Origin: Calditrichota bacterium
GTDB lineage: Bacteria > Zhuqueibacterota > Zhuqueibacteria > Zhuqueibacterales > Geothermadaptataceae
DNA length: 64,000 bases
Direction of reading: 5' to 3'
NCBI GenBank assembly: GCA_008501765.1
Contig: QQUE01000002.1
Location: 1-64,000, forward strand
The position numbers were made by a program, and so were the translations under genes. Positions within the stretch are counted from its first letter, which is position 1, and every line of letters begins with the position of its first letter. A model generated the notes under the pieces. That model did not search any database. It was given only the letters and a program-made list of their open reading frames with translations, and had not been told where the DNA came from. Below, in pieces: positions 6,727 through 9,573 of the stretch.

Positions 6727-7827
6727 TTAAGTTTCCACGGCTACTGCGACACCACTTAATTGGTGAATTTTTTGAACGACGACCAGGCTGTCGTGGTATT
6801 TTTCAACCCACTTTCGTCCTGCTTCAGAAATTTGATTTCGCCGGTTCGGATTATCGATGAGCTGTACTAATTTTTCTTTGAGATTGGCTGCATTTATCTC
6901 GATAAACGGGTGTTCCGGAAAATGGCTGTGGAAGCCCGGTGCCAGGCAGGTACAAGTCGGAATCCCGAAAGCCAGTGCTTCCAATGAATTTATACCGTAA
7001 CCCAAATCCCCTATTTGGTCTATAAAAATGTCGCATGATTGTTTTTGTGCCAGCGCATCGAAATGCGACATATTTTCGATAAGCACAATCGTTATATTTT
7101 TCTCTTTTTGCAATTGATCGAGAATCGCTAGAATCTGCTCACTGCCCTTGGCTTCTCTGTTCGTCGGGGCATGGCCTATGCGTGTTTTGTCACCAGCTAG
7201 AGGAACTCGGAAATCAAATTTACCCGTATCGAAAGGCAGCGGTAAATGCACAAGCTGCGGATGCAACATCAGGTGATCGAGTTCAAAAGTCCCACGAAAA
7301 TTAGCTGCGTTCTCCACTTGTGGATAAATTCCGCGCGTGCGCAAATCACTGCCGGTATAGAGCACGGCGATCTTTTTCCCACGTTTTTTAAGCTCGATAA
7401 TTGTTCGCGCGTCTGAAAAAAAATCCATCCCGGTTTCAAAACAATAAAGATCAAAACTGAAAAAGTCTATTTTCTGCATCAATTTTTTCACGCGCGATTG
7501 CCACAGTTTTTCACGACCGGAGATGAGAATTTTTTCAATAATCCCGCCGGATTTCCACAACGGTGGTTTTTCCGGATTTTGCGGGATGATATTTTTAACC
7601 GACTGCCGTGAACTATGGCTAAAAATTGGCTTAAAATGAACGACCCACTTATTATTTGCGAACGGCAAATTTAACACGACATCTTCTTCATAGCCACGCG
7701 GATCCGCGAAAAATGTGACCAGCCGACTGTAATGACCGAGCCGCCTTTCAGCTTTAACGAGCGTCATGGGCACATTGGCGATATTTTGTGGTGCAATATG
7801 CAGAATCTTCAGTGGGGTCTTACGCAT
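6727..7827 (-). CDS. glycosyltransferase, GT-B type (group 1-like)
   Basis: About 366 residues, probably a cytoplasmic or membrane-associated glycosyltransferase. It opens with KILHIAPQNIANVPMTLVKA, a nucleotide-sugar transferase first strand, and in its C-terminal half has a GT-B donor-binding pattern (DIFIDQIGDLGYGINSLEALAFGIP, then EAGRKWVEKYHD). The Gly-Ile-Asn-Ser-Leu-Glu-Ala-Leu segment corresponds to the E-x7-E region of GT4-type enzymes. The acceptor cannot be told. An in-frame TTG at 7833 is possible, but the ATG at 7827 is the commoner choice; neither has a strong ribosome site. It lies upstream of the GT9 gene on the same strand and is probably part of surface glycan synthesis. Confidence 0.75.
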   Translation of the reverse strand: MRKTPLKILHIAPQNIANVPMTLVKAERRLGHYSRLVTFFADPRGYEEDVVLNLPFANNKWVVHFKPIFSHSSRQSVKNIIPQNPEKPPLWKSGGIIEKILISGREKLWQSRVKKLMQKIDFFSFDLYCFETGMDFFSDARTIIELKKRGKKIAVLYTGSDLRTRGIYPQVENAANFRGTFELDHLMLHPQLVHLPLPFDTGKFDFRVPLAGDKTRIGHAPTNREAKGSEQILAILDQLQKEKNITIVLIENMSHFDALAQKQSCDIFIDQIGDLGYGINSLEALAFGIPTCTCLAPGFHSHFPEHPFIEINAANLKEKLVQLIDNPNRRNQISEAGRKWVEKYHDSLVVVQKIHQLSGVAVAVET

Positions 7828-7914
7828 GGGCAATTATTGCAAAGTGAAACTGATTATTTGATTTAATCGAACGGTGCAAAAATAGTGAAACCAACTATTT
7901 AACACAAATCAATT

Positions 7915-8215
7915 CTGGCTATCCAATTAACTCAGCATTTTCAACTTCTTGTAAAAATATAATATTACCTATATTTATTGCAAAAATTAGCCTTTTCAAA
8001 AAGTCTACAAAACTATGCCACCCCTCCGGGGTTTAAATATTTGGATTTTCAGTGTTATAATCATGTCATCCCTCCGGGATTAAAAAAATTAATCTGTTTT
8101 GTTATGCTGCAAAACCCCGGAGGGGTGCAATGAATATAACTCGGTGAACTCAAAAAACCGGAGAACCCCGGAGGGGTGGCATGTTCACCGCTGGCTGAGT
8201 TAATTGGATAGCCAG
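7915..8215. repeat. nested inverted-repeat element (MITE-like), about 300 bp
   Basis: Two perfect 22-base arms at 7915-7936 and 8194-8215 (core TATCCAATTAACTCAGC) are inverted relative to each other. Inside them is a second perfect 19-base inverted pair at 8015-8033 and 8164-8182 (core CCACCCCTCCGGGGTT). Two further copies of the CCCTCCGGG core lie at about 8069-8080 and 8114-8126. A 61-codon minus-strand frame across it only reflects the repeats. There is no transposase, so if mobile it would need help from elsewhere. Confidence 0.75.
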
Positions 8216-8376
8216 ATAAAATCAATTTTAGTAAAAATTCGATCAATCAACGCATTGTGTCAATAAAAAATCAATTGCATTTGGAGCACATAACTTTAAA
8301 TTCTTAAAACATTCCCGAACGAAACAGGTCGATCTGGATTCTGATTGGCGGGAAAAATTGAACCAGCGGAGACTCC

Positions 8377-8684
8377 ATGCACATCATTAACTTGATAATT
8401 TATTTGACAGCTCTCATCAGCCATATAACTTTCGCACAGACGGAAAAATTTAAAAAGTTCTCCTATCTGATTGGTGAACGGTAAGGTATGAGAACGGATT
8501 TTGGCTATAAAACTCCCACCATTCATTTAAAATTTAATCGAGTGAAAACTTTGTTAAACGTGTTCGTGCTCAATGGACGATTAAACGAACCGCCGATAAT
8601 GAAATTGAGACGGTATTCGAGGTTACATTTCCCGGCAAAAACTTTATCTGTTTTGATGCTAAAAAGCTAACAAAAGAGGACTAA
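8377..8684 (+). pseudogene. broken gene for a small secreted protein
   Basis: An ATG with a GGAG ribosome site opens a clear signal peptide (MHIINLIIYLTALISHITFA, then QTEKFKKFSYLIGER), and the frame stops at 8482 after 35 codons. The shifted frame is open from about 8546 to a stop at 8682-8684 and encodes a sensible C-terminus (KRVRAQWTIKRTADNEIETV, then FEVTFPGKNFICFDAKKL). Together this suggests one exported protein of about 100 residues interrupted by a stop and a frameshift. The 'F.YLIGE' stretch after the signal peptide resembles the start of DUF6265/DUF1579-type proteins such as the one at 19301. It ends 4 bases before menA, whose ribosome site lies in its last codons. Confidence 0.55.
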
Positions 8685-8688
8685 TTTC

Positions 8689-9573
8689 TTGTCCAAATTC
8701 AAAATCTGGCTCGACGCCAGTCGCCCAAAAACGCTGTGGGCCGCCATAGCTCCGGTTATTTTGGGCTCGGCCCTGGCTGCGGCTGATAACAGCTTTTACT
8801 GGCCCGCTGCTTTCATTGCACTCATCGGCGCTGTGCTCATCCAAATTGGGACCAATTTTGCCAACGATTATTTCGATTTCCTCAAAGGCGCCGACGCTGG
8901 TCCACGACTGGGGCCAACACGGGCGACGCAAGCAAAGCAGGTTACTCCAGCTCAGATGCGTCTGGCGTTTATTTTGGTATTTGCATTGGCAATTTTGATC
9001 GGAATTTACCTGGTCTGGCGTGGTGGCTGGCCTGTGGTGGTGATTGGTTTGGCCTCTATATTTTTCGGAATTCTCTATACGGCAACCCCCTATGCCCTGG
9101 CCTATCTCGGAATTGCAGACTTGTTTGTGCTGATATTTTTTGGACCCATTGCCGTTGGCGGAACGTATTATGTGCAAACCCTGACCATCACACTGCAAGT
9201 ATTAATCGCTGGCCTTGCGCCAGGATTTATCTCGATGGCCATTCTGGTTGTCAACAATTTGCGAGATATTGAAAACGACCGCAAGGCGGGAAAAATGACT
9301 TTAGCCGTGCGTTTGGGTAAACGTTTTACCCAGATAGAGTATATTTTTTGTCTGTTACTCGCGTGTTTGATTCCCGCTGGCCTGATCATTTTTTATGAAG
9401 CTCCGCTGGCCATTCTCGCCGTTTTTCTCATTTTACCCGCCGGATTCAATTCCATAAAAATTGTTTTCCAACCCGGCGAAGGAAAAATTCTGAACAACGT
9501 TTTAGCAGGAACAGGCAAGCTACTGCTTTTTTATTGCCTGTTATTTTCATTGGCTCTCACTTTTAGTGGTTAG
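8689..9573 (+). CDS. menA: 1,4-dihydroxy-2-naphthoate polyprenyltransferase MenA
   Basis: Integral membrane UbiA-family prenyltransferase of 294 residues that attaches the isoprenoid tail to 1,4-dihydroxy-2-naphthoate, giving demethylmenaquinone. Both Asp-rich motifs are present: NDYFDFLKGAD (59-69) and DIENDRKAGKMTLAVRLG (193-210), the second typical of MenA. The rest is about eight hydrophobic helices. The N-terminus SKFKIWLDASRPKTL matches the family. The start is TTG at 8689, fixed by AAAAGAGGA 8 bases upstream. The next gene, menE, overlaps or abuts the stop, so the two are probably cotranscribed. Confidence 0.93.
   Translation: MSKFKIWLDASRPKTLWAAIAPVILGSALAAADNSFYWPAAFIALIGAVLIQIGTNFANDYFDFLKGADAGPRLGPTRATQAKQVTPAQMRLAFILVFALAILIGIYLVWRGGWPVVVIGLASIFFGILYTATPYALAYLGIADLFVLIFFGPIAVGGTYYVQTLTITLQVLIAGLAPGFISMAILVVNNLRDIENDRKAGKMTLAVRLGKRFTQIEYIFCLLLACLIPAGLIIFYEAPLAILAVFLILPAGFNSIKIVFQPGEGKILNNVLAGTGKLLLFYCLLFSLALTFSG

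Follow-up and report, generated by a model that had tools for sequence, protein, structure and literature searches.

The window analysed here, a 64,000-nt stretch of contig QQUE01000002.1 from a Calditrichota bacterium, carries at positions 7914–8216 a copy of a MITE. The assignment follows from its terminal inverted repeats (TIRs), its 9-bp target duplications, some 20 dispersed gene-less copies in the same genome, and shells of like ends that enclose unrelated interiors. The fuller reading, which we hold to be probable, is that of a non-autonomous DDE transposon (MITE) with an IS1595-like mobiliser, into which a REP module was captured as cargo.

Geometry and copies of the element

Both pairs of arms are 100% complementary, over 23 nt (outer) and 19 nt (inner) (Table 1). 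The nested perfect inverted repeats described in an earlier, sequence-only reading are therefore real, the outer pair of 22 nt being extended by a T/A pair to 23. The 'alternating' orientation given there to the cores is wrong: CCCTCCGGG occurs exactly four times in the 64-kb window, at 8022 and 8070 on the plus strand and then at 8116 and 8167 on the minus strand (shuffled window: mean 0.21, at most 3). The outer arm has no further match in the window at ≤3 mismatches (shuffles 0), and no ORF of ≥70 aa lies inside 7914–8216. Folded as single-stranded DNA, the element reaches −77.3 kcal/mol versus −30.6 ± 3.8 for 100 dinucleotide shuffles (z −12.3), in agreement with the earlier view that it is able to form one long palindrome, which may fold.

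Table 1. Parts of the element and its flanks, in window coordinates.
Feature	Position	Strand	Remarks
Left target-site duplication CAAATCAAT	7905–7913		8/9 versus right copy
Left terminal inverted repeat TCTGGCTATCCAATTAACTCAGC	7914–7936	+	
Inner 19-nt perfect inverted pair, left arm	8015–8033	+	
REP unit b, leftward	8020–8032	−	Hairpin ACCCC-TCC-GGGGT, without GATTATA tail
REP unit a, leftward	8068–8080	−	Hairpin ATCCC-TCC-GGGAT, tail ATGATTATAAC on minus strand
REP unit a, rightward	8114–8126	+	Hairpin ACCCC-GGA-GGGGT
Tail of rightward unit a			ATGAATATAAC in window copy, ATGATTATAAC in consensus of copies
Inner 19-nt pair, right arm	8164–8182	+	Contains REP unit b, rightward (hairpin 8165–8177)
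Right terminal inverted repeat	8194–8216	−	
Right target-site duplication AAAATCAAT	8218–8226		Preceded by one extra base (T, 8217)

In the 5.92-Mb genome of the window's organism (G000) the outer arm has 71 matches at ≤3 mismatches, with 0 in a reversed control, and the core ACCCCTCCGGGGTT has 59 exact matches, 52 in 20 two-ended elements, 6 in two one-ended elements and 1 outside shells. A genome search with arms and core separately had been proposed, on the grounds that the nesting would be chance if the two repeats were always independent. They are linked in the own genome, where 58 of the 59 exact cores lie inside TIR-bearing elements, and separate outside the genus. Family A, to which the window copy belongs, comprises 20 dispersed two-ended copies without coding capacity; L069 is a further two-ended copy of 247 bp with a single 9-mer core, and shorter families with like arms have other interiors (B, ~215 bp; C, ~199 bp; D, 2 copies). 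Identical 22-nt ends are confined, in the 20 two-ended family A copies, to the window copy and L085; the left end CTGGTTATCCAGTTAACTCAGC is present in 10 and the right end CTGGCTATCCAATTAACTCAGC in 11 of 19 aligned copies.

Flanks were compared in register for 43 copies in this genome (A 23, B 10, C 8, D 2), retaining the poor rows L078, L104 and L079 (A) and L077, L075 and L074 (C), several of which have one damaged end. At a duplication length of 9 bp the identity was 0.83 and 19 of the 43 were perfect; assumed lengths of 5–8 and 10–13 bp gave 0.25–0.31 and none perfect, and 1000 mismatched flank pairings a mean of 0.284 and a maximum of 0.38. The window copy, with its duplication of 8/9 and the extra base, is thus probably no very recent insertion.

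Some copies are composite. An internal duplication of one 52-bp unit gives the family A copy L087:2213-2563 (G000:C6:99212-99562) five hairpins. Another family A copy is directly adjoined, at L078:6014-6570 (G000:C8:356813-357369), by a shell element of ~246 bp that resembles family C. At L072:6072-6604 (G000:C6:248471-249003) a second type of MITE is nested in a family C copy; its ends (approximately ATTGATTRTGMCYTTAGCTCCGC) look by eye like the ends of another IS1595 element, L283 of the same-genus G002. Among plasmid records, 13 gave short and weak matches, with a best E of 0.08 and less than 80% of the query covered in every case, and the one viral contig with the pattern was rejected, the pattern lying inside an open frame.

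Downstream of the element, 8377–8686 holds the remains of a small gene whose start resembles a signal peptide and whose reading is interrupted by a stop and by changes of frame. The suggestion that the element arrived with this disruption is unsupported: it ends at 8216, ~160 bp before the ATG at 8377, its duplication lies outside both of its ends, and it does not interrupt the gene. No DNA likeness to the window was found upstream of menA in G001, G002, G003, G005 or G006, and G004 has only ~110 bp of DNA upstream of menA.

The shell in relatives and its candidate mobiliser

Like arms with 9-bp duplications surround other sequences in G001 (same genus), G004, G006 and G038. All fetched loci together hold 140 distinct shell elements, where distinct refers to the exact sequence with flanks, so that elements truncated at the edge of a locus may have been counted twice. 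A perfect 9-bp duplication is present in 52 of the 139 shells with full flanks, against 0, 1, 1 and 0 at 7, 8, 10 and 11 bp. Clustering by similarity sorts the interiors into 14 groups, 6 of them with one member; since some singletons resemble offshoots of others, the count of 14 is an upper limit. Of the 14 representatives, 8 fold at z < −3 versus simple shuffles; the others do not, family C (z +2.3) among them. Hairpin cargo is common in the shells without being the rule. G001 itself has a family A copy (L105) and two family A-like copies with one or two arms (L298, L307), which places the capture of the cargo probably before the split of the window's species and G001. The same-genus draft G002 (67% complete) gave no TIR match.

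A transposase that could move such shells was sought with PF12762 over eight genomes, which returned two copies in G001 and one in G002. A complete G001 element of IS1595 type (L284:3-1006, 1004 bp) surrounds a PF12762 transposase, and its ends, CCGGTTATTTAGTTAGCTCAGC and CCGGTTATTTAGTTAGCTCCGC, agree with the MITE end CTGGTTATCCAGTTAACTCAGC at 18/22 and 17/22 positions; the TCAGC/TCCGC asymmetry of these ends reappears in family C of the window's genome. The G001 copies lie at contig ends, where their own target duplication is unreadable, and the G002 IS1595 element has ends that differ from the TIR. In Candidatus Electryonea clarkiae one TIR adjoins an IS1595 transposase (PF12762 and PF12760), the far end of that element being a poor match to the TIR (8/21 mismatches). 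PF12762 had no match in the window's own assembly (draft, 21 contigs), nor in G003, G004, G005, G006 and G038, though G004, G006 and G038 hold shells. IS1595 elements usually, not absolutely, duplicate 8 bp according to the part of PMC8101967 drawn on here, and a range of 7–9 bp is given for the IS1016 group in the corresponding part of PMC12561309; the 9-bp duplication of the element departs from the usual 8 bp of the family. Given this length and the lack of PF12762 in the own genome, we use the term 'IS1595-like' for a mobiliser that we infer, and an IS1595-like transposase is likely to be the mobiliser, judging from the ends of the same-genus G001 element. The shell would be moved in trans by such a transposase, recognising TCTGGNTATCCANTTAACTCAGC and cutting with a 9-bp stagger.

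Other candidates were tried and rejected. An ISAs1-type mobiliser, the first guess from the TIR, had no PF13808 match in the window's genome. PF01609 (IS4/IS5-type) had one match there and eight in G001, G003 and G005, all without a matching TIR (≤6 mismatches) in their loci; the sole TIR among them belongs to a separate MITE copy beside the match in the window's genome. Unpaired TIRs at two contig ends of this genome held no autonomous copy, a transposase fragment being inserted in a family C MITE. The ends of contigs C14 (L076:11503-11740) and C11 (L074:1-306) share the same terminal transposase-like fragment, which we take to be of IS3 type, in family C MITE DNA, so these contigs may be neighbours. 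A TIR scan of a genome contig collection found at least 113 stretches, mostly, among those listed, from HyVt-473, S139_20, Zod_Metabat.1197 and DRR093004_bin.59, with single matches elsewhere. Unpaired or long-spaced TIRs made up 64 rows; 29 of them were inspected by eye via the three longest frames of ≥110 aa, with a recognisable transposase only in L246, and the other 35 mostly have little contig DNA.

The REP cargo and the readings of its origin

The four hairpins are two inverted copies of a two-hairpin module, in the order b a | a b on the plus strand. Unit a has the tail ATGATTATAAC, which differs by one base in the right half of the window copy; unit b lies ~50 bp further out and is tail-less. 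The tags of the window units are TGCC, TGTC, TTGC and TGCC, and two units of subfamily A2 have TGTC. Other families of the phylum have similar modules with no shell around them, and such modules also adjoin Y1 (IS200/RAYT-like) transposase genes. Of 82 phylum genomes, 16 contain the REP pattern ACCCCGRAGGGGTNNNAT, and 14 of these gave no TIR match within 2 mismatches; conversely, the REP pattern is absent from 3 of the 5 genomes with the TIR. The pattern is loose, its matches in, for example, G013, G014 and G057 being other hairpin families without the tail. The ATGATTATA tail is present in shell-free units of G032, G042 and G078, and G032 has a shell-free array of four units in the order a b | b a, unlike that of the window.

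The single core outside shells in the window's genome belongs to tandem units just 5' of a Y1 gene (L062:158-622; 154 aa; PF01797, 2e-21; NCBIfam transpos_IS200, 59.7 bits with a cut-off of 55). L358 of G042 has units at positions 184 and 233, ahead of a Y1 match at 351–707 with 74% identity over 119 aa. By eye, the flanks of the remaining three Y1 genes in the window's genome (L121, L122 and L123) contain hairpins of other kinds, GTGCCAGGCAC, CCAGGCCACAAGGGCCTGG and CCCTTGCGAAGG. Seven shell-free modules of our choosing were aligned to each half of the element, giving 14 comparisons with 300 shuffles each. Whole modules outscored every shuffle in all 14 of them; with the hairpin cores masked, 5 of 14 did so, all with G032 modules, and the flank of the own Y1 gene reached 16 and 20 versus shuffle maxima of 24. 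Descent from the particular locus L062, whose masked scores stay below the shuffle maxima, is therefore unsupported, and the interior is likely, by its sequence likeness to the shell-free modules, to be a REP module carried as MITE cargo. Capture into an IS1595-type shell would have taken place in an ancestor of the window's species and G001, after which the hairpins would have multiplied in the window's genome as MITE cargo, not by Y1 transposition.

The masked comparisons also bear on a different origin, in which the hairpins are home-grown palindromes of the MITE and resemble Y1-flanking repeats only because short GC hairpins converge. Consistent with it, only those five comparisons survive masking, the own Y1 flank fails, and other cargo clusters have unrelated hairpins. 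At odds with convergence, which we regard as unlikely, the ATGATTATA-tailed unit recurs with its ~50-bp period and a/b alternation both next to Y1 genes and in arrays that other families have outside shells.

Retention for a host function, such as a bidirectional terminator, an mRNA-stabilising hairpin or a protein-binding palindrome, is in our view more doubtful still. When 19 of the 20 two-ended family A copies (all but L087) were aligned with L105 of G001, the hairpins proved far better conserved between subfamilies than the spacers, as such a function would have it: A1 (16 copies) and A2 (3 copies) differ by 2.0% in the hairpins, 9.1% in the TIRs and 23.9% in the spacers. Versus L105, whose right end is badly aligned, the three differ alike (22–27%). 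Within the family no stem pair had changed on both sides and there was no excess of covariation over shuffles, so the evidence of hairpin constraint is sequence conservation, not covariation; for the conserved TIRs, transposition suffices as an explanation. The element also contains the best promoter-like match (8032–8061, 10/12) and the sole terminator-like match (8171–8158) of 7700–8700, but their numbers are no better than those of shuffles (terminator-like 1 versus 0.8, sd 1.0; promoter-like 4 versus 2.7, sd 1.6), and Rfam gave one match, far below the gathering score, and none above it. The location of the copies, intergenic or close to the end of a gene, would suit a regulatory role; by simple ORF prediction with the flanks joined, however, 11 of the 20 family A copies are between tandem genes and only 2 between convergent ones (counts without a background), the others being between divergent genes (3), inside a predicted ORF (3; one at the last codon and two at 3 and 35 codons from the start) or unclear at a contig end (1).

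Inverted REP pairs are typical of REPINs, and the element has four REP-like hairpins in a genome with a Y1 gene beside like hairpins, yet movement of the whole 300-bp unit as a REPIN/BIME by a Y1 (RAYT-like) transposase, the outer arms being merely a further palindrome, is very improbable: the 9-bp target duplications oppose it strongly, Y1 transposition to our knowledge making none, and the outer TIR recurs around unrelated interiors and at the ends of an IS1595 element.

Shells as possible REP carriers and comparison with known systems

It is usual to keep REPs and MITEs apart as two classes, the former moved by Y1 single-strand transposition and the latter by DDE cut-and-paste. With capture of a REP module into the MITE shell, one repeat class would be packaged in another and would have multiplied as its cargo in the window's genome. 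A bolder extension is that IS1595-type MITE shells are general carriers of REPs, lineages of the KSB1 group each having different REP families in one shell. In the window's genome this would be the doubled module of TGTC/TGCC type. In G004 and G006 (genus g3) the cargo is a dimer of TGTC/CGTC-ATTCCGG hairpins, for which GTCATTCCGG has 294 and 435 matches, respectively (reversed control 2 and 3). The first 30 listed GTCATTCCGG loci were examined rather than a random sample: arms (≤6 mismatches, within 220 bp) flank both sides in 20 of them and one side in 4, three of these sites being at contig ends, and 6 have none; shuffled loci gave 5 arm matches in 70 kb. Counted by hand as 20 independent sites, 13 have both arms, 3 one and 4 none, so that 16 of the 20 have the shell on at least one side. 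The shell-less sites include a clear dimer (L326) and one in apparent coding DNA (L342). In G038, two elements have CGTC/TGTC-ATYCTGA-like ends.

With a single phylum and short tags behind it, we put forward the general-carrier extension only tentatively. In the part of PMC3733652 drawn on here, CGTC-tagged REPs are described as having no associated transposase, and some REP dimers as lying inside palindromes. The shell, if the extension is true, would account both for the spread of CGTC-REPs without a transposase, by riding DDE transposons, and for the dimers in palindromes. Shells with readable 9-bp duplications make the spread of CGTC-REPs testable genome by genome. They also carry a warning, as REP counts can mirror MITE transposition instead of RAYT activity.

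Among the matches listed from the open-licence literature, no title or abstract opening describes REPs as the interior of an IS1595 MITE. RUP, NEMIS, ERIC and Nezha are bacterial MITEs of IS families, as stated in the portion of PMC3733652 used here, and the element resembles them in being short, gene-less, TIR-bounded, intergenic and folded as a long palindrome; unlike them it has a doubled REP module, a TIR that points to IS1595 and a 9-bp duplication. With the IS1595 family it shares the ends of the same-genus element; it differs in having no transposase gene and in duplicating 9 bp, versus the usual 8 bp given in the portion of PMC8101967 consulted. REPs, REPINs and BIMEs with their RAYTs are matched in the 5-bp-stem hairpins, the tandem and inverted pairs and the like units beside Y1 genes. 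Unlike in those systems, 58 of the 59 exact cores of the window's genome sit in a DDE-type shell with target duplications, and the tags mix TGTC, TGCC and TTGC in place of GTAG. For GTAG-15 of A. variabilis and CGTC-1 of H. neapolitanus, the portion of PMC3733652 seen reports REP dimers regularly enclosed by a palindrome, which it terms the target, and mentions no target duplication, whereas the enclosing arms of our element are transposon ends with 9-bp duplications. BrickBuilt of Porphyromonas gingivalis, an intergenic MITE of 19 copies with a minisatellite interior in the portion of PMC4596501 available, likewise carries another repeat class inside; the cargo in that case consists of 23-nt tandem repeats and not of REP hairpins associated with a Y1 transposase. 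The MITE as a kind is thus already known, and the REP-module cargo is what differs.
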